Positions 6,314 through 21,532 of a DNA stretch of 64,000 bases are shown here, piece by piece; positions within the stretch are counted from its first letter, which is position 1, and every line of letters begins with the position of its first letter. The notes beneath the pieces are model-generated. The model was not told the DNA's origin, ran no database searches, and saw nothing but the letters and a program-made list of their open reading frames with translations. The DNA comes from Spirochaetia bacterium (GTDB lineage Bacteria > Spirochaetota > Spirochaetia > Treponematales > Rectinemataceae): contig JARKOY010000125.1 of the NCBI GenBank assembly GCA_029975555.1, positions 62,001-126,000 of the forward strand, given 5' to 3'. Both the position numbers and the translations under genes were made by a program.

Positions 6314-6346
6314 AAGCTGTCGGCGAGGACCCCCGACAGCTTTTTC
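6314..6346 (+). terminator. intrinsic terminator after the rhodanese gene
   Basis: A 10-bp perfect stem AAGCTGTCGG / CCGACAGCTT with a 9-nt loop, followed by a short T tract. Since potD ends on the other strand at 6356, the hairpin may act in both directions. Confidence 0.8.
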
Positions 6347-13109: not shown

Positions 13110-13181
13110 CGCTTGTTCAATATATAAAAATTAGCCAGAAACGGCGCAGATGTGCATAAATTCCCAAAAAACAGCCACACG

Positions 13182-13210
13182 TTGCATATTCTATACTTTT
13201 GTGCTATAAT
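13182..13210 (+). promoter_or_regulatory. near-consensus promoter of the candidate small RNA upstream of rex
   Basis: TTGCAT (13182-13187), exactly 17 bp, then TATAAT (13205-13210). The predicted transcription start is about 13217. An intrinsic terminator ends the unit at 13309, well before rex. Confidence 0.75.
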
Positions 13211-13216
13211 AAAATT

Positions 13217-13309
13217 CAAAGAGCGGCAACTATGTGAATGCCGACATGAAGTCATTTCCCCATGAGCGGTGGCGCTGAGGTTTACCTCCTTTTCCTCAGC
13301 GCCTTTTTT
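13217..13309 (+). ncRNA. candidate small RNA with C-rich single-stranded motifs (unit A)
   Basis: About 93 nt bounded by a strong promoter and an intrinsic terminator, with no convincing reading frame. In order: a 5' hairpin CGGCA / TGCCG (13224-13243); an unpaired linker holding TTTCCCC; then the terminator stem with a 13-nt loop that contains CCTCC. C-rich unpaired motifs of this sort pair with the Shine-Dalgarno region in RsaE/RoxS-type RNAs of Firmicutes (established knowledge); the parallel here is inference. A ten-codon frame beginning 13246 lacks a ribosome-binding site. Alternatively this could be an attenuated leader of rex, but rex appears to have its own promoter after the terminator. 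Confidence 0.55.
13271..13309 (+). terminator. intrinsic terminator of candidate small RNA A
   Basis: A perfect 10-bp stem GGCGCTGAGG / CCTCAGCGCC and six Ts. The 13-nt loop carries CCTCC. An alternative inner hairpin GAGG-TTTA-CCTC overlaps the stem and would compete with it. Confidence 0.88.
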
Positions 13310-13344
13310 GTGTTCCTGCGGCGGTGTAAAAAACACCCAATCGC

Positions 13345-13374
13345 TTGACTTTTATCGATACGTCTGCATACGCT
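13345..13374 (+). promoter_or_regulatory. possible rex promoter
   Basis: TTGACT at 13345-13350 with a weak -10 (TACGCT, 18-bp spacing) about 40 bp before the rex start and downstream of the preceding terminator. I find no clear Rex operator (TTGTGAA-N4-TTCACAA type) here. Confidence 0.4.
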
Positions 13375-13415
13375 ATATATGGAATTACTCATACAACCTT
13401 AGCGCAAGGAGTCAC

Positions 13416-14063
13416 ATGCTCATGAAAACGAAACTGAGTTATGCACCATCCATTCGCCGTTTGCCTTCATACCTGCACATCATCCGAGCCTTTCAGAGGA
13501 CGGGGGATCCTTATATTTCCGGGACATGGATCGCAAACGAACTCAACCTGGAGCCGATACAAGTCAGAAAGGACCTCGCCATAACTGGCATTGCGGGCAA
13601 GCCTAAAAAAGGTTATCCGGTAGAACAGCTTATCGCAGCCATCGAACATTATCTGGCATGGGATGTGGAGCAGAGAGCTGCGATTGTAGGGGCGGGCAAT
13701 CTCGGTTCGGCGCTGATAGGGTACCAAGAATTCAGAAATCATGGTCTGCACATCGTGGCCGCGTTCGACAACGATCTTTCGAAGGTGGGACGCTCCATTC
13801 ATCAGGTACAGGTCTATGGAATGGAAGAGCTCAAGGCGGTCATCGAAAAAATGAACATAACGCTGGCGATCCTCACGGTTCCCTCACCCTACGCCCAATC
13901 GAGCTGCGATGCGATTGTTGCCGCAGGCATCCGTGCGATCTGGAACTTCACGAACGTGAAGCTTAAGGTGCCAGAGGATGTGTTGGTACAGCGCGAGGAC
14001 CTTTCTTCGGGCTACGCCATACTGTCGGTGATGATGCGTATGCGGTCGAAAGAGGTGTCCTGA
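13416..14063 (+). CDS. rex: redox-sensing transcriptional repressor Rex
   Basis: Dimeric repressor that senses the NADH/NAD+ ratio and controls fermentative and respiratory genes. It has 215 residues. The N-terminal winged helix includes YISGTWIANELNLEPIQVRKDLA. The Rossmann domain begins AAIVGAGNLGSALIGY, the NAD(H) loop, and ends with a swapped helix (YAILSVMMRMRSKE). AAGGAG at 13406-13411 lies 4 nt before ATG 13416 and 10 nt before ATG 13422; either may be used. The reading frame is open further upstream, but that part crosses a terminator and is not coding. A C-rich small-RNA candidate lies directly upstream. Confidence 0.95.
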   Translation: MLMKTKLSYAPSIRRLPSYLHIIRAFQRTGDPYISGTWIANELNLEPIQVRKDLAITGIAGKPKKGYPVEQLIAAIEHYLAWDVEQRAAIVGAGNLGSALIGYQEFRNHGLHIVAAFDNDLSKVGRSIHQVQVYGMEELKAVIEKMNITLAILTVPSPYAQSSCDAIVAAGIRAIWNFTNVKLKVPEDVLVQREDLSSGYAILSVMMRMRSKEVS

Positions 14064-14233
14064 TCCACGCAGAGACTCTGACTTAAAGAGAAAGAAAACA
14101 GAGGGCGGTTCAAGATTAACTTCAGCCTACCTTTGATCTTACGCCTGTCGACACACTTATGCTGACAGTCTGGTCAAACATTACTATACGCACGTGTACC
14201 GCTCCGGTCTTCTTGAAACAATACAAGTTTTAG

Positions 14234-14262
14234 TTGCACGGTTTATCCCGTAATGCTACAAT
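14234..14262 (+). promoter_or_regulatory. promoter of the Rrf2-family regulator
   Basis: TTGCAC (14234-14239), 17-bp spacer, TACAAT (14257-14262). At the predicted transcription start lies an 11-bp palindrome TTGATCATCAA (14262-14272), a possible operator for autoregulation (inference). Apart from this promoter I see nothing definite in the region between rex and this gene. Confidence 0.65.
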
Positions 14263-14308
14263 TGATCATCAAAATGTTGCAAAAAATCGAAAAAGAGGGT
14301 TTATTACA

Positions 14309-14746
14309 ATGAGAATGACAACGCGTGGGCTTTACGGCCTTAAAGCAATTCTGACCCTTGCGGAACTGTCGGATGAGCACAACCCAGTATCTTTGCAGAG
14401 GATCGCGCAGATCGAAGGTCTTTCTTCTGAATTCCTCCAACAGATTTTTTACAGGTTGAGGAAAGCCGGCATCGTCAAAGCCTTTCGCGGGCCAGGAGGT
14501 GGTTTTACCTTAAACAAAAAACTCGACGAAATTTCGACGTATGATGTTCTCTTTGCCGTCGGAGAAACGCTGGAAATAGTCCCCTGTTCGCTCGAAAAGA
14601 ACAGAAAGAAAGCCTGTCCCAATTGTACCTTCTGCGATGCAGGGGATTTCTGGCTCGGCATGGAACAGACAATCGTGGAGTACGCGAAATCTATATACCT
14701 GTCGGATTTTCAGCACAGGGCGCGGGCTTTCTTGAAGCAAGCATGA
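14309..14746 (+). CDS. Rrf2/IscR-family transcriptional regulator with four-cysteine cluster
   Basis: A 145-residue winged-helix regulator. MRMTTRGLYGLKAILTLAEL is the family N-terminus, LQRIAQIEGLSSEFLQQIFY is the recognition helix-turn-helix, and the wing reads FRGPGGGFTL. IscR binds [2Fe-2S] with three cysteines spaced C-X5-C-X5-C. Here there are four, C93, C103, C106 and C109, spaced C-X9-C-X2-C-X2-C, so a different cluster or a zinc site is possible. No isc/suf genes are nearby. The start is set by homology, with AAGAGGG upstream; an in-frame start at 14234 would lie within the promoter. It ends 14 bp from the end of the convergent pyrFE gene with no clear terminator. Confidence 0.88.
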   Translation: MRMTTRGLYGLKAILTLAELSDEHNPVSLQRIAQIEGLSSEFLQQIFYRLRKAGIVKAFRGPGGGFTLNKKLDEISTYDVLFAVGETLEIVPCSLEKNRKKACPNCTFCDAGDFWLGMEQTIVEYAKSIYLSDFQHRARAFLKQA

Positions 14747-14760
14747 AACAAAGGCTCCGC

Positions 14761-16230
14761 TTACCCCTCGGCCGTAAATTCGATGAGTTTTTGATATTGA
14801 TCTTCATGTATCTCGCCGCTCTGCCTGAGCACATCGAAGAGCTCCAGGACGTGGATAAATGCATGGAGTCGCACGCCAGCCCTCTCCATGTCGCGCCTCC
14901 CCTCTTTGCCCCGTTCAACCAATACTACCAGGTCTTCCACCCGAAGCCCCTCTGACCGCAATATGTCGATGGCTTCGAGTTTGCTTGCGCCGGTCGTGAT
15001 GAGATCGTCGAGTAAAAGGGCACATTCTCCCGATGAATAGCTTCCCTCGATGCGATTCCCGGTTCCATGCTCTTTTACGGGCATCCGTGGCCAGATCATG
15101 GGTTTTTGAGTTTCCAGCGCTGCGGCCGTGGCGAGGGGCAAGCCGGCAGCAGGAATGCCTGCGATGCAGTCGTAGGTGCACGTTGAGGCAAGCAGCGCGT
15201 AGGCTCTGCCGGCGATCTTCATCGCACGAGGATCCGCGATGAGTCGCCTGAGATCGATGTAAAACGGGCTCTTCTTACCGCTTTTGAGGATGAACTCTCC
15301 CAACCTGAAACATTTCGTTGAGAGCAGCGCGTGGACAAACTCACGCTTGAGCGTCGCCAGCTCTCCGCTCACGCTGTCTCTGTGCACGGTATCGGTCGTC
15401 AGGGAAGCTTTTCCTGGATTTGTTCTGACTTCTGTTCTGGCGTCGCGGGCCCTCCTCATCGCATCTCTCAGTTCACGGGCGACCTCGGATGGGTCCAGAG
15501 CATCTGCTATTGCCCGCGCGACGACCACTAGAATGCCCTTGCCGTCGTCTCGTGCTCCTACGGAAAAGGCCTGGTCGGCCTGCCCCCCCTGGGCGCCTAT
15601 TCCTGGGCTCAAAAACCAAGCCGAGGGGACGGCTTGCCTGACCATTCGCAGCGCTTCAAGATCGTTGCCCGCCACCACCAGCCCTACTTCTTTCGGCAGC
15701 GCGGCGCAATGCTTGGCCAATGCAAGATAGAGGGGAGAGCCGTGTACCGCGATGTCCTGCAACAAGCCTGCTCCCGGGTTACTGGTGCGACAGAGCACAA
15801 AGACCCCTTTTTCTTCCCATTTCAGAAATGGCTCAAGAGTGTCGAGCCCCATATATGGGCTCAGCGTGACGGCGTCCGCGCCGAGCTCACCGAACAGCGC
15901 CTGCGCATAGGCCTCTGCCGTGTTCGAAATATCGCCCCGTTTGGCGTCGATGATGACGGGGATATCGTCGGGGATGGAGTCCAAAGTCTCCCTGAGGGCG
16001 GCCATCCCCGGCTCGCCGAGCGCCTCATAGAATGCGATGTTGGGCTTGAAGGCGGCGGCATAGGGGGATGTGGCCTCTATGATTCTGAGATTGCGCTCGA
16101 GCGCCGCTCGCGCACAGCCAGCCTTGCCATACTTCTCAATGCCCTCTTTTGAAAAAGCGGGGTCGAGGCCGATGCAGAGCACGGTGTCCATCGCTTCAAT
16201 TCGCCGTTCGATGCGGGCAAAAAAATTCAT
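14761..16230 (-). CDS. pyrFE: fused orotidine-5'-phosphate decarboxylase - orotate phosphoribosyltransferase (PyrF-PyrE)
   Basis: Catalyses the last two steps of UMP synthesis in one 489-residue chain. Residues 1 to ~270 are the decarboxylase of the longer (group 2) type, with VIIDAKRGDISNT giving D95, K97 and D100 of the catalytic network. A linker of about 35 residues follows, rich in Arg, Thr and Ser. Residues from ~305 are the transferase, with KSPFYIDLR and the PRPP loop LLLDDLITTGAS near 405-416. The domain order is opposite to animal UMP synthase (transferase first). The gene is divergent from the outer-membrane protein gene and shares with it a region holding a 16-bp palindrome. Confidence 0.93.
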   Translation of the reverse strand: MNFFARIERRIEAMDTVLCIGLDPAFSKEGIEKYGKAGCARAALERNLRIIEATSPYAAAFKPNIAFYEALGEPGMAALRETLDSIPDDIPVIIDAKRGDISNTAEAYAQALFGELGADAVTLSPYMGLDTLEPFLKWEEKGVFVLCRTSNPGAGLLQDIAVHGSPLYLALAKHCAALPKEVGLVVAGNDLEALRMVRQAVPSAWFLSPGIGAQGGQADQAFSVGARDDGKGILVVVARAIADALDPSEVARELRDAMRRARDARTEVRTNPGKASLTTDTVHRDSVSGELATLKREFVHALLSTKCFRLGEFILKSGKKSPFYIDLRRLIADPRAMKIAGRAYALLASTCTYDCIAGIPAAGLPLATAAALETQKPMIWPRMPVKEHGTGNRIEGSYSSGECALLLDDLITTGASKLEAIDILRSEGLRVEDLVVLVERGKEGRRDMERAGVRLHAFIHVLELFDVLRQSGEIHEDQYQKLIEFTAEG

Positions 16231-16283
16231 GGTGGTTCCCCTGATGACTCCATGGTCGCTTTTAGGATACTATTCGCACGAAA

Positions 16284-16299
16284 ATACAGTATACTGTAT
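16284..16299. promoter_or_regulatory. 16-bp perfect palindrome in a divergent promoter region
   Basis: ATACAGTATACTGTAT is its own reverse complement and contains TATACT, a good -10 hexamer, on both strands. It lies 54 bp before pyrFE and 30 bp before the outer-membrane protein gene, as expected for an operator overlapping divergent promoters. No good -35 was found for either direction. The half-sites are arranged opposite to the CTG-N10-CAG LexA box of E. coli. Confidence 0.5.
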
Positions 16300-16328
16300 C
16301 ATATAAAAAAAGAGGAAGGAGGCTTGCC

Positions 16329-17699
16329 GTGAAAAAAGCGCTTGTATTGCTTGTTCTGTTGGTTGTCGCCATCCCTGTCTTTGCCCAAGAGCACGTTGGG
16401 GCAGGATTCAGCTTCGCCGCAGGGCTGGGCACAGACCTTCTGCCCAATCCAAGCGATCCCACAAAGCTGGAGAGTTGGTCCAAACTGGCGCTGCAGCCTG
16501 AGTTTTCCATCGGGAAATTTGGCATCGGACTGGACCTCATGCTCAGGTTCAAGCTCGGGACAGGCGCCAGCGCCTTTCAGGTGTACGAGCCTGATTGGAT
16601 ACCCCAGGCCGGCCAGACCATCTTCGACGTCTATTTGCCCAAGATCCTCTACATTCGCTATGGCTATCAGTGGGAAGACCCCTTCTACATCAAGATGGGA
16701 TCCATCTCCGATTTTACCCTCGGAAACGGACTGATCGTCGACAACTATTCGAACATGCGCTTTTTGCCTCGGCGGCGCATGTTCGGCATGCAGCTTGGCG
16801 TGGATGGAAGCCTTTTCGGCGTCCCCTATGTCGGCATCGAGGCGCTGACCGGCAATGTCACCAAGCTCGATGTCATTGGAGGCCGGGTGTATGTGAGGCC
16901 CCTTGCCTTTATGGGAAAAAGTCTCCTGGGGAAACTGCAGGTAGGCGCGATCGGCGTGTACGACAGGGATCCATACCTCTATGTCGACGATGCCGCATAC
17001 GGGACCAGCTATACCAGCACGCTGCCTTCGGAGCCTCTCTATGTGGTCGGGGCCGACATCACCTTGCCCGTCATTCAGAGCGACGTGTTCTCTCTCACGA
17101 CCTTCGCGGAGGGGGCGCGAGAGATGAACAACGCCATGGGCGCGATCGCAGGCATCAGAGGCAGGGTTGTGCACTTTATCTTGTACGGAGCTCAGTTCAG
17201 GTATTTCCAGGACGACTTCATCCCTTCCTATTTCGACGCGAACTATGATCTTTACAGGGCCGACAGGTTCGTCTACATCAAGACCCACACGCCGGCCGGC
17301 ACGAATTTCAATCCAAGCTGGCTGGCGTCGCTGGGCTTCGATCTCTTCAAATCTTCGCTGACCTTCAAGGTGGCGCTCGATGCGCCCTTTGCATGGATAC
17401 AGGATATCACATCCGACAATTCGGCGGACTTCCCCCACCTGCTCGGTTCGCTCAAGCTCGCCCGCGGCCTTATTCCCAACGTGGACATTGCGGCGCGGTA
17501 CGAAAAATTTTTCCTCGGCAAAAAAACAGGTGGAAACGTGTGGCGGGACATCATCAGCCTGAGGGACGCATCGATCGGCGTCACGGTGAGCTATAAGGCA
17601 GGCACGGCGCTCGTCTCGATGGACTATGCCTATACGTGGAACCCGACAAAAAATAATTTTGACGTCGTCTCAAGTCTCTCGGTCGGATTCGAGCTGTAG
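16329..17699 (+). CDS. predicted outer-membrane beta-barrel protein
   Basis: A 456-residue exported protein with a clear signal peptide (KKALVLLVLLVVAIPVFAQ, cleavage after AQ near residue 20). The rest is built of alternating short amphipathic strands rich in Gly, Tyr, Phe and Asp with few cysteines, and the last strand ends SLSVGFEL, typical of barrels inserted by BamA. The strand pattern resembles treponemal outer-membrane proteins, but I cannot assign a named family. GGAGG lies 7 nt before the GTG start. It is monocistronic with a strong terminator after it. It could be a porin or transporter; substrate is unknown. Confidence 0.8.
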   Translation: MKKALVLLVLLVVAIPVFAQEHVGAGFSFAAGLGTDLLPNPSDPTKLESWSKLALQPEFSIGKFGIGLDLMLRFKLGTGASAFQVYEPDWIPQAGQTIFDVYLPKILYIRYGYQWEDPFYIKMGSISDFTLGNGLIVDNYSNMRFLPRRRMFGMQLGVDGSLFGVPYVGIEALTGNVTKLDVIGGRVYVRPLAFMGKSLLGKLQVGAIGVYDRDPYLYVDDAAYGTSYTSTLPSEPLYVVGADITLPVIQSDVFSLTTFAEGAREMNNAMGAIAGIRGRVVHFILYGAQFRYFQDDFIPSYFDANYDLYRADRFVYIKTHTPAGTNFNPSWLASLGFDLFKSSLTFKVALDAPFAWIQDITSDNSADFPHLLGSLKLARGLIPNVDIAARYEKFFLGKKTGGNVWRDIISLRDASIGVTVSYKAGTALVSMDYAYTWNPTKNNFDVVSSLSVGFEL

Positions 17700-17742
17700 A
17701 GGGTAATCCGACGACACAGGTCACAGCGCCAACCATCAACCC

Positions 17743-17786
17743 AGGCCGCGCATTTCCGCATATGCGGGCGCGGCCTTTGTTTTTTC
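17743..17786 (+). terminator. intrinsic terminator after the outer-membrane protein gene
   Basis: Stem AGGCCGCGC / GCGCGGCCT with an inner CCGCATATGCGG stem, followed by TTGTTTTTT. Confidence 0.88.
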
Positions 17787-17811
17787 TGCTGAAATGATTA
17801 TCATACCAACG

Positions 17812-19575
17812 ATGGGAAAAATCAGAATTCTGCCCCCGGAAACTTCTCGCCGCATCGCCGCGGGAGAAGTCATCGACAGACCCGCCTCCGCCCTCCGAGA
17901 GCTCCTCGACAATGCCATCGACGCAGACGCGCACGACATCTCGGTCTCGATATCGCAGGGGGGCGTTGAAGAGATAACCGTCTCAGACGATGGATGCGGC
18001 ATGTCGAAAGAAGATCTTGCCCTATCCATCAAGGAACACGCCACGTCGAAGATATACGAGCCCGATGACATCCTGAGGGCAAAGACCCTCGGATTCCGCG
18101 GCGAGGCGCTGGCATCCATCGCTGCAGTGGCGCGCCTCGAGATTGCAACGAGGCTGCGCGCCTCGTCCGAGGGCTGGCGACTTTCGAGCTCCCCCCTCCA
18201 GGACCCCACCCTTGACCTTTTCCCCTGCAAAGAAGGCACGAGGGTCTCCGTCCGAGGGCTCTTCGAATCCTTTCCCGCCCGCAGGCAATTTCTGAAAAGG
18301 CCTCAAAGCGAGGCCTTTTTGTGCAGAACGACGTTTGTCGAACGCGCCCTTGCGCACCCAGAGATCACGTTCCGCTGGAGATCGTCGAACGATACACAGG
18401 TGATCACGCCGACTTCTGCCAAGGAACGAATTGTCCAGTGCTATCCCGAGCTCTCCCGCACCCCACTCTTCGACGCCTCCTTCAAGACCGAAGAGGTGCA
18501 GGTGCACATTGTCTACGCAGACATCTCGTCGTACAGGAAAGATCGCAAATTCCTCCAGGTGTTCGTGAATAGAAGGAGAGTGCCTGAATGGGGCCTCGTC
18601 AGCCTCCTAGAATATGAATTCGGGAAATATCTGCCCGGCGGCGCCCATGCGATCGCGTTTCTTTTTCTGGAAATAGAGCCGTCGCTCGCCGATTTCAATA
18701 TTCACCCCGCCAAAAAAGAAGTGCGGCTGAAAAATCCGGCGGAGGTCAGATCGGTAGTCCACACTCTTTTGTCGAACGAATTGACTGCCCGGTACAGAGG
18801 GGCACCGCAGGCCCTCGAGAGACACGCTCCGATGTATGGAGAGGCCCTCTCCGCATCAGGCGAAACCGTATTTCTTCCGACCTTCGATGAGGTTCGACCA
18901 TGCGCCGTGGAGGAACCACCTGGCCGCTGGAAAAGGGACGCGTCATTTCTCAGTTCTTCCCAGAGCGCGGGGGCGCAAGCGCGCGGGACGCAGCTTCCTT
19001 CGGATTTCTGGCAGAAGGTGAAACAGGGGCAGCTCTCTTCTCACCGATACATCGGCAAGGGGCCGGGGCCTTTTCTTCTTTTTGAGATGGAAGACGCGCT
19101 CTTCATCCTCGATCAGCACGCGGCACATGAGCGCATCCTCTACGACAGAATCAAGGCGAAAAGGGGGGAAAGCCAACCTCTCCTCGTGCCCTACGTGCTC
19201 GAGCCTCAGGAGAATGAACACTACCTCAGAGAGTCCTCTCAAATTCTCGAGTACGTGGGCTACAGGATCGAAAAAGAGTCGGAGGCCTGGGTTGTGGATG
19301 CCGTCCCGGCAATCGCGGCGTCCAAGGCCCTCGAAGCGCTCGTCGAATGGCTGTCCCAGCCTTCCTCCGATGCGACGCCCATAGACGCCATCGCCGCGAA
19401 CCTCTCGTGCAAGGCCGCGATCAAAGACGGGGACATTCTCGATCAGCCTTCCGCCGAACGACTGATAGCAGAGGCATTGGCGCTCCCCGAGCCGCGCTGT
19501 CCTCACGGGCGTCCGATCTTCATCGCAATTCCGAGGGAGAAGCTCTATGCAATGTTCGGGAGAATCGTCGAATGA
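17812..19575 (+). CDS. mutL: DNA mismatch repair protein MutL (endonuclease type)
   Basis: Links MutS mismatch recognition to strand incision. It has 587 residues. The N-terminal GHKL ATPase shows IAAGEVIDRPASALRELLDNAIDA, DDGCGM and TLGFRGEALASI. The C-terminal domain carries the metal-dependent nickase motifs DQHAAHERILYD (434-445), CKAAIKDGD and CPHGRP (from 563), as expected where MutH is absent. The last acidic residue of the DQHA-X2-E-X4-E motif is Asp rather than Glu. Neither ATG (17794 or 17812) has a visible ribosome-binding site; 17812 places Met as in other MutL proteins. Its stop overlaps the next gene as ATGA. Confidence 0.95.
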   Translation: MGKIRILPPETSRRIAAGEVIDRPASALRELLDNAIDADAHDISVSISQGGVEEITVSDDGCGMSKEDLALSIKEHATSKIYEPDDILRAKTLGFRGEALASIAAVARLEIATRLRASSEGWRLSSSPLQDPTLDLFPCKEGTRVSVRGLFESFPARRQFLKRPQSEAFLCRTTFVERALAHPEITFRWRSSNDTQVITPTSAKERIVQCYPELSRTPLFDASFKTEEVQVHIVYADISSYRKDRKFLQVFVNRRRVPEWGLVSLLEYEFGKYLPGGAHAIAFLFLEIEPSLADFNIHPAKKEVRLKNPAEVRSVVHTLLSNELTARYRGAPQALERHAPMYGEALSASGETVFLPTFDEVRPCAVEEPPGRWKRDASFLSSSQSAGAQARGTQLPSDFWQKVKQGQLSSHRYIGKGPGPFLLFEMEDALFILDQHAAHERILYDRIKAKRGESQPLLVPYVLEPQENEHYLRESSQILEYVGYRIEKESEAWVVDAVPAIAASKALEALVEWLSQPSSDATPIDAIAANLSCKAAIKDGDILDQPSAERLIAEALALPEPRCPHGRPIFIAIPREKLYAMFGRIVE

Positions 19576-20249
19576 AAAAGCCCCTCCACATACTCTGCGT
19601 CGCCGACGAAGTCGACCTGCTCGTCTACAGTAGTCAAATATGCGAGCGCTTTTCCGACATCGACCTTGTACTTTCGGCGGGCGACCTTCCGGACGAATAT
19701 CTCGAATACATAGCGAGCATGCTCAACAAACCGCTCATCTCCGTCGCGGGAAACCACGATAAAGGCGATGAGCCTTCCGATTGCTGCGGGGGGCTTCGCT
19801 TCAGCGGCGGCACTGAGCAACGCGGAGGCTTCGGTCGACTCCGGTTCGGCATACGAGAGGAAAACGGCGTCAGTGTGCTCGGACTGCCCGGTTCCATCCG
19901 GTACAATGATGGACAGAACCAATACACCGACGCATGGATGACGTTCCGGATCATTCAAATGCTTCCGAGGCTTCTTCTGCGACGGCTTTTTAGGGGGAGA
20001 TCGGTGGACATCATCCTCGCTCATTGCCCACCCCGAGGCATCCACGACGGCGGGGATCCTGCTCATGTCGGGTTCTCGGCCTACCGGTGGCTCATACGGC
20101 TTGCGAGGCCATACTACTTCATCCACGGCCATGTGCACCTCTACGACTTGCAGGCCCTCCGCGAGATAGAGTATTTTGATACATCCGTGATCAATGTCTA
20201 CGGACACCGGGTGATCACCCTGCCAAAGGAGCGCAACAATGGCGGATGA
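19572..20249 (+). CDS. calcineurin-like metallophosphoesterase
   Basis: A 225-residue protein of the calcineurin-like phosphoesterase family. Metal-binding motifs appear in order: LSAGDLPDEY, VAGNHDKGDE, LAHCPPRGIHDG and the closing HGHVH. The N-terminal metal Asp usually found as DxH is less clear (CVADEVD), which is a small oddity. Substrate is unknown; relatives act on nucleotides, phosphodiesters or phosphoproteins. It overlaps mutL by 4 nt and the next gene by 11 nt, so the three form one translationally coupled operon. Confidence 0.85.
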   Translation: MKKPLHILCVADEVDLLVYSSQICERFSDIDLVLSAGDLPDEYLEYIASMLNKPLISVAGNHDKGDEPSDCCGGLRFSGGTEQRGGFGRLRFGIREENGVSVLGLPGSIRYNDGQNQYTDAWMTFRIIQMLPRLLLRRLFRGRSVDIILAHCPPRGIHDGGDPAHVGFSAYRWLIRLARPYYFIHGHVHLYDLQALREIEYFDTSVINVYGHRVITLPKERNNGG

Positions 20250-21156
20250 TTATCACACACAGGCCGAGAGAGATTTCTACAGAGCCAAGACAAAGGCCTT
20301 AACATCGAGAATTTTTGGAATACTGAGGCCCTCGCTCTTCGAGCTAATGCCTTTCGATGAGGCCAAGCGGCTGATTAAGCCACAGGGCGAGATGTACCGA
20401 GGAGTGACATCGGTTCGCCTCGCGGACATTGTGGGCAGCGAGGGACGGTACAGGGATTTCAACCGCTTCTTTTTCCCCAAGAAGGAGCACCTCAAGTCTC
20501 GCTGGACCGGGATCGATGAGCTCCAGTATAAAGATGTGATCTTGCCTCCTGTAGTCCTCTATGAAATGGGCGGTTTATACTTTGTCCGCGACGGCAACCA
20601 CAGGGTTTCCGTCGCGCGAGCAAAGGGACAAGAATTCATCGATGCCGAGGTCGTCTCGCTCAAGTCCGAGATACAGCTCACCCCCGACATGTCGATTCAG
20701 GACATCAAGCGGGCCGTCGTCGAATACGAAAAGCAGCGCTTCTACAGAGAGACAAACTACGTCAATGTCGTAGGCTCCGACGATCTTGTGTTCAGCGAGC
20801 CGGGACGATACGACACGATCAAGGAGCACGTGCTCGTACACAAATATTTTTTGAACCAGAACATGGCTGAAGAGATCCCTTTTCACGAGGCGCTCTTTTC
20901 ATGGCATGAAAATGTATATCAGCCCATCTGCCAGGCCATAGAGGCAGAGAATTTGCTCTCGCTCTTCCCTGGCCGCACTGTTTCGGACCTCTATCTCTTT
21001 CTCGTCGCACACTGGGACGAGCTTAAGCGCACATTTGGCCGCTTCGTGGAGATAGGAGAGGCAGCCGAAAGCTTTAAAATCCAGACAAAGCGGGGGCGAC
21101 GGCGTTTTTTCTACCACATCCGCACGCTCTGGGGTGCGATATGCAAAAAAAAATAA
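20239..21156 (+). CDS. DUF4032-like protein with ParB/sulfiredoxin-type motif
   Basis: A 305-residue protein. The stretch YFVRDGNHRVSVARAKGQ resembles the GxHR motif of ParB/sulfiredoxin-fold domains, where it binds nucleotide. It is followed by helical regions and a basic C-terminus (KRGRRRFFYHIRTLWGAICKKK). Proteins with this layout (DUF4032) are known in spirochaetes and actinobacteria, without an established function. GGAG precedes the start, which lies inside the end of the phosphoesterase gene. Coupling to mutL suggests a housekeeping rather than accessory role. Confidence 0.75.
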   Translation: MADDYHTQAERDFYRAKTKALTSRIFGILRPSLFELMPFDEAKRLIKPQGEMYRGVTSVRLADIVGSEGRYRDFNRFFFPKKEHLKSRWTGIDELQYKDVILPPVVLYEMGGLYFVRDGNHRVSVARAKGQEFIDAEVVSLKSEIQLTPDMSIQDIKRAVVEYEKQRFYRETNYVNVVGSDDLVFSEPGRYDTIKEHVLVHKYFLNQNMAEEIPFHEALFSWHENVYQPICQAIEAENLLSLFPGRTVSDLYLFLVAHWDELKRTFGRFVEIGEAAESFKIQTKRGRRRFFYHIRTLWGAICKKK

Positions 21157-21198
21157 AAATTTTCACCCAAAATTGTAACCTTGAAATCAAATTTCCAT

Positions 21199-21204
21199 TA
21201 TAAT
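21199..21204 (+). promoter_or_regulatory. -10 element of the second candidate small RNA
   Basis: Perfect TATAAT in AT-rich DNA just after the DUF4032-like gene. No convincing -35 is present at 16-18 bp (TTGTAA sits 20 bp upstream), so promoter strength is uncertain. Confidence 0.5.
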
Positions 21205-21210
21205 TAACGA

Positions 21211-21292
21211 CGAGAGCAAGTGAGCGCAGCTTCTTCTTGCAGCCTCCATTGTATCGGCCGCCGGATACCCCTCCTTATCCGGCGGCATTTTT
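21211..21292 (+). ncRNA. candidate small RNA with C-rich single-stranded motifs (unit B)
   Basis: About 82 nt from a TATAAT box to an intrinsic terminator, with no plausible reading frame. In order: a 5' hairpin GCAAG / CTTGC (21216-21240); an unpaired linker containing CCTCC (21243-21247); a terminator stem of 11 bp with loop CCCCTCCT. The layout matches unit A at 13217-13309 although the sequences differ. Both place CCTCC, complementary to GGAGG, in the terminator loop. It could instead be the 3' UTR of the upstream operon, but the TATAAT box and defined hairpins favour its own transcript. Confidence 0.5.
21257..21292 (+). terminator. intrinsic terminator of candidate small RNA B
   Basis: Perfect 11-bp stem GCCGCCGGATA / TATCCGGCGGC, 8-nt loop CCCCTCCT, then ATTTTTAT. 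It would also end transcripts of the mutL operon. Confidence 0.85.
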
Positions 21293-21361: not shown

Positions 21362-21532
21362 ATGGCACAGATTTCCAAAAACGCGCGTACGACCACCTCT
21401 ACCCACCACTTCTACTGCCCCTGCGGCGGCGAAATAAAGATGAAGACCATCTTTGAAAACGGCAGGGTCAAAAATATTGCCGAATGCGAAAAATGCAAAA
21501 GGGTCGAGCGGCGTCCAAGCGACTTCAAATGA
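21362..21532 (+). CDS. 56-residue Cys-rich (zinc-ribbon-like) protein
   Basis: Small basic protein with two pairs of cysteines, YCPCGGEI and AECEKCKRVE, that could bind one zinc ion. The length and charge recall ribosome-associated zinc-ribbon proteins, but it is not L32, L33, L36 or S14 by motif, and I do not recognise the family. AAAGGAG lies six bases before the start at 21362. It has its own promoter and a strong terminator after it, so it is an independent gene with a good case for expression. Function unknown. Confidence 0.75.
   Translation: MAQISKNARTTTSTHHFYCPCGGEIKMKTIFENGRVKNIAECEKCKRVERRPSDFK

Follow-up and report, generated by a model that had tools for sequence, protein, structure and literature searches.

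Two predicted small-RNA families with an anti-Shine-Dalgarno terminator loop in Rectinema and related spirochaetes

Several described small RNAs act through C-rich or anti-Shine-Dalgarno (anti-SD) motifs. In alpha-rhizobia, NfeR1 base-pairs at the translation start through anti-SD seeds (PMC10746234), and in the alphar14/NfeR1 group the stems vary while the unpaired anti-SD motif, which reads CCUCCUCCC and is carried by all three hairpins, is ultraconserved (PMC10746234, PMC3927594). LhrC of Listeria repeats the motif UCCC in loop A, a single-stranded linker, and the terminator loop, and this C-rich motif binds the SD region of lapB (PMC4132741). RoxS/RsaE of Bacilli likewise carry C-rich regions, and RoxS is repressed by Rex (PMC5419742). 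In Helicobacter, the C/U-rich terminator loop of RepG alone suffices for repression (PMC8295292), its target being the G-repeats of the tlpB leader and not an SD site. Here we analyzed a 64,000-nucleotide (nt) stretch, hereafter the window (positions 62001-126000 of contig C70 in genome G000, a 3.27-Mb Rectinema metagenome-assembled genome of the order Treponematales), which contains two predicted small RNAs whose terminator loops display CCTCC: unit 1, next to the redox-sensing repressor gene rex, and unit 2, next to a gene for a 56-amino-acid protein (Table 1). Units 1 and 2 probably represent two separate conserved families of trans-acting small RNAs in which an anti-SD loop would block translation.

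The design of a variable stem around a fixed anti-SD loop is already known, and the two families described here appear new. The unit 1 family shares with alphar14/NfeR1 the combination of a covarying stem and an invariant loop, CCTCCTTT, but the motif is present in one terminator loop (unit 1) or in loop and linker (unit 2) instead of three hairpins. It also reads CCUCCUU in the terminator loop, with an additional linker motif in unit-2 relatives, and occurs in another phylum, with no match in Rfam. The linker and loop motifs of unit-2 relatives resemble the repeated motif of LhrC, although here CUCC is confined to the linker and terminator loop, whereas LhrC is multicopy and LisRK-controlled, and no homology was found. 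Compared with RoxS/RsaE, the units have one loop, and the link to Rex consists of adjacency to the rex gene itself and only a weak operator-like site. A C/U-rich terminator loop like that of RepG is present in both units, with mRNA pairing here a prediction. A preliminary description of this DNA had likened the units to RsaE/RoxS and RepG; kinship by homology was not borne out by Rfam. Neither the window nor its relatives yielded a match at gathering score, save signal recognition particle RNA in locus L089, and nothing relevant was returned at E ≤ 5 for 8 loci. In the literature searched, no account of anti-SD small RNAs that act by base-pairing in treponemes came up, and likewise nothing specific on the sigma-24 regulon.

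Unit 1 ends in a perfect terminator stem enclosing a 13-nt loop (13281-13293, TTTACCTCCTTTT; CCTCC at 13285-13289) and followed by TTTTTT, and the loop CCTCC has an unpaired probability of 1.00 in the predicted ensemble. Within Rectinema, mean pairwise identity reaches 96% for the hairpin and 81% for the promoter, compared with 53% for the 5' part including the TTTCCCC linker, 38% for the spacer to rex, and 61% for the start of the rex open reading frame. This profile suggests selection on the promoter, hairpin, and loop. A promoter-like block belonging to rex itself is conserved as well, so that unit 1 looks like a transcription unit separate from rex. Searching with unit 1 by blastn identified matches in 8 genus mates and in G063, a member of another family in which the copy also lies 5' of rex; for the sole listed genus mate without a match (G006), a copy was later found upstream of rex. 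Inspection of the region upstream of rex in 30 genomes revealed CCTCC-loop terminators with differing stems in many genera. The promoter elements TTGCAT and TATATT/TATAAT are also present upstream of relatives in other families, and a small 5' hairpin recurs in most other genera with a different sequence (AGAGTTCGTCATGACTCT among others); the C-rich linker is absent from relatives in other genera.

Covariance modelling followed the blastn search and this inspection. The model, R1, derives from only 8 of the rex-upstream hairpins because MAFFT placed stem gaps wrongly, and the other hairpins were then aligned to it. Of 394 genomes of the order, 113 contain matches to R1 (E ≤ 0.001); 35 genomes, from families f1, f2, and f4, have the match on the rex strand at a distance of 82-252 nt 5' of the gene, and a further rex-upstream match in G004 is cut by a contig edge. 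The 40 rex-linked hairpins, of which 21 are distinct, have standard pairs in 99.5% of pair cells; both-side changes occur in 5 of the 10 stem pairs, four pairs are invariant, and CCTCCTTT in the loop is identical in 40/40, with these counts biased toward structure and loop as the alignment was fitted to the R1 structure and R1 favours the loop. The rex-upstream list found by synteny without R1 presents the same picture of a fixed loop and varying stem. The covariation score of the rex-linked stem was 0.511, against 0.176 for shuffles and at most 0.144 for slid controls. The preliminary description had regarded relatives that keep the terminator stems and lose the loop bases as evidence against its proposal; the relatives display the reverse, with covarying stems and a fixed loop, a pattern that places the CCTCC loop under strong selection. 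Reverse-strand R1 matches (19-26 bits) were rejected as separate RNAs, being the same palindromic hairpins read backwards. As for rex itself, homologues were found in 129 of 149 genomes of the order, and the aligned rex stretch in G031, G062, and G077 (genus g16 of family f3) holds one TAA codon.

The terminator loop of unit 2 (21268-21275, CCCCTCCT; CCTCC at 21270-21274) is followed, after the stem, by ATTTTT, and its CCTCC likewise has an unpaired probability of 1.00 in the predicted ensemble. Matches by blastn were obtained in 7 genus mates and in G022, from another genus; a match in G089 was discarded as it has no U-tail and looks like chance. The 56-amino-acid gene is the neighbour of unit 2 in G018, G032, G037, G010, G048, G022, and most Rectinema. 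Through R1 matches away from rex, families f1, f4, and f5 yielded further relatives, which carry CCTCC or CTCC in both linker and terminator loop. Most members of this wider family have a promoter in which GTWACY is followed after exactly 15 nt by [GT]GTT, the second element being TATTAT-like in Rectinema, and neither GTWAC nor the loop CTCCTT varies among the 15 aligned members. R2, a sequence-only model of the family, matched 64 of 393 Spirochaetota genomes (E ≤ 0.01). The matches inspected, in families f3, f12, f15, f19, f20, and f21 (weaker ones in part), keep the promoter and the CTCC-loop terminator, and a CTCC or CCTCC linker motif is found in most of them, as in most wider relatives.

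A search for the promoter pattern by itself gave 17 sites in 10 genomes, versus 40 for a control pattern. Ten of the 17 sites are intergenic, and half of these ten lead into CTCC-loop terminators. Among these five sites, L278, L272, and L287 were earlier R2 matches, L280 was a weak R1 match, and L275 was new, so that this check is only partly independent, four of the five being already model matches. L275, L280, and L287 are CTCC-loop RNAs behind a unit-2-type promoter in G061, G038, and G041. In G142 (f3, genus g22), the RNA at locus L160 contains CCTCC twice and has a promoter with a shorter spacer, and in G661 (L253) a unit-2-type RNA occurs in two tandem copies ~180 nt apart.

Overall, the layout set out in the preliminary description, i.e., a promoter and an intrinsic terminator with a perfect stem and CCTCC in an open loop, was confirmed for both units, which look like the discrete small-RNA units it had proposed. 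Its suggestion of one family for both was not upheld, as promoters, neighbours, and homologue sets differ between the two.

Table 1 Predicted features of the two units and their neighbouring genes (positions in the window)
Feature	Positions	Strand	Observation
Unit 1 promoter, TTGCAT-N17-TATAAT	13182..13210	+	81% mean pairwise identity in Rectinema
Unit 1 small RNA (predicted), rex-linked family, ~93 nt	13217..13309	+	Has promoter and terminator; 35 genomes with a homologue 5' of rex
Unit 1 5' hairpin, CGGCA/TGCCG	13224..13243	+	Read from the sequence
Unit 1 linker, TTTCCCC	13255..13261	+	Present; not conserved beyond the genus
Unit 1 terminator hairpin, perfect 10 base pairs	13271..13303	+	z -6.4 vs shuffles; covariation, invariant loop
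rex promoter-like block, TTGACT... (TTGACTTTTATCGATA)	13345..13374	+	Conserved, between unit 1 terminator and rex
rex, redox-sensing (NADH) repressor gene	13422..14063	+	Pfam CoA_binding, Put_DNA-bind_N
Unit 2 promoter, GTAACC-N15-CATTAT(AAT)	21175..21204	+	GTWACY-N15-[GT]GTT in wider family
Unit 2 small RNA (predicted), ~82 nt	21211..21292	+	Homologues in 7 genus mates and G022; wider family by R2
Unit 2 linker, CCTCC	21243..21247	+	21240-21250, 98% mean pairwise identity in Rectinema
Unit 2 terminator hairpin, perfect 11 base pairs	21257..21286	+	z -4.5 vs shuffles
56-amino-acid protein gene, CxC...CxxC, downstream of unit 2	21362..21532	+	Neighbour conserved; no Pfam match

The genomic position of the units could also be read as that of cis-acting attenuators in the 5' leader of rex or of the 56-amino-acid gene, with the loop pairing with the SD of that gene. 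In f1, f2, and f4, every unit 1 homologue lies ahead of rex and shares its orientation, and the AAGGAG site of rex could pair with the loop, as expected from such a leader. However, the conserved promoter-like block of rex is located downstream of the unit 1 terminator, and the genes downstream of unit-2 relatives differ or converge, so that a leader role cannot be general; in the several relatives with a convergent downstream gene, the RNA is thus no leader. Taken together, we consider an attenuator role unlikely.

The loop sequence is related to the ribosome itself: the 16S 3' end GGATCACCTCCTTT is present in genome G000, and the unit 1 loop has ACCTCCTTT in common with this tail. The loop might be a site for protein binding, with an RNA chaperone, a ribosome-associated factor, or a nuclease recognizing the 16S tail as the partner, and the RNA a protein decoy instead of a base-pairing regulator. 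The copying of the 16S 3' tail, which in the Breznakiellaceae type extends over as many as 12 nt, and the failure to find an extended mRNA complement fit such a decoy, but a single-stranded anti-SD seed explains enough and has precedents; to our knowledge, no protein recognizing the anti-SD loop motif has been described. We therefore view a decoy function as improbable. A third RNA type was observed in f5 (L101, L105, L117, L099, L084, L107, and L152), often 5' of an acyl-CoA synthetase-like gene, with a hairpin loop (TTTCNTCACCTCCTTTT) that copies the 16S tail over as many as 12 nt. The G186 copy seems to be closed by a long-range helix (CTGATGATACGGT/ACCGTATTATCAG), and in G033 (L104) an RNA of this type precedes a second Rex-like gene by ~135 nt.

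We next considered how special such loops are. CCTCC is common in the window (212 matches vs 179 expected), so that the motif alone proves nothing, and the enrichment is that of terminator loops. In 80 named spirochaete genomes, a strict terminator search of the regions around rex (1.24 Mb) recovered 183 terminators in total. CTCC loops were found in 22 of the 24 terminators within 700 nt 5' of rex and in 10 of the 159 others, all but one (L233) of which look like unit-2-type RNAs upon inspection of the scan listing, which leaves about one in 150 unrelated terminators with a CTCC loop; GGAG loops numbered 3. This survey agrees with the earlier observation that the window terminators at 6314, 17743, 21548, and 25890 have no CCTCC loop, i.e., that the loop is not a general terminator feature. 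That the units are ordinary terminators of upstream genes, with a loop due to chance or termination, is very improbable and largely refuted by the covariation and this survey: both are strong intrinsic terminators and CCTCC is slightly over-represented in the window, but the loop is constant where stems vary, it is rare in unrelated terminators of the same genomes, and each unit has its own conserved promoter. Comparison across genomes thus establishes the promoter-terminator units, loop conservation, stem covariation, linkage, and distribution.

In the explanation we favour, each RNA would be made from its own promoter and ended by its intrinsic terminator, whose stable stem would display the anti-SD loop, which reads ACCUCCUUU in unit 1 and CCUCCUU in unit 2. 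This loop, along with the second CUCC in the linker of many relatives, would base-pair in trans to ribosome-binding sites of the AAGGAGG type, keep the 30S subunit from binding, and lower the translation of chosen mRNAs. The agreement of the loop with the 16S 3' end is in keeping with such pairing, for which LhrC, NfeR1, and, on G-repeats, RepG provide precedents. SD-like purine runs precede about two-thirds of the window genes, and the five GGAGG sites listed in the preliminary description do lie directly upstream of plausible start codons. Pairing would work without Hfq, the gene for which was not found in 18 genomes of the order by a model search with working controls. Unit 1, beside rex, may belong to redox (NADH) control, which is attractive because RoxS is Rex-repressed (PMC5419742), and unit 2, which appears to be driven by an extracytoplasmic function (ECF)-type sigma factor, may belong to a stress response. 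Transcription, pairing, repression, regulators, and targets are what we infer from these sequence patterns.

Several observations weigh against this explanation. GGAGG itself is present at just 14 of the 56 window genes, and the complement of the 13-nt loop, AAAAGGAGGTWAA, is found in 12 genomes almost solely as the reverse strand of the RNA gene itself, so that no long conserved target was found and target choice is unexplained. The C-rich linkers noted in the preliminary description are present in both units, but that of unit 1 is not conserved, and the CCTCC of the unit 2 linker is predicted to be mostly paired in G000 (unpaired probability of 0.20) and in most Rectinema. Rex may control unit 1, given their adjacency and one operator-like site with 3 mismatches (13150-13167, upstream of the unit 1 promoter); a similar site lies at the same place in most Rectinema, but it is weak, and none was found outside the genus. 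Similarly, an ECF sigma factor may control unit 2 given the shape of its promoter, GTWACY-N15-[GT]GTT in most of the family, with Rectinema itself having a TATAAT-like -10 element; relative to the control pattern, no genome-wide enrichment of this promoter motif was found in the 10 genomes searched.

A broader and more doubtful possibility is that Hfq-less spirochaetes share an old layer of anti-SD small RNAs, composed of an RNA spread across the class Spirochaetia and driven by an ECF sigma factor and a rex-linked RNA through which Treponematales would couple translation to the NADH state; both could act on many mRNAs as soluble copies of the 16S tail. At the level of the two families, the window provides two uncatalogued RNAs (no match in Rfam 15) with sharp comparative support, and one of the two spans several families of the class. 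Their rex neighbour, ECF-like promoter, and fixed 8-nt seed offer handles on translation control in spirochaetes, along with a natural test case for target choice by an RNA whose anti-SD loop is nearly generic.

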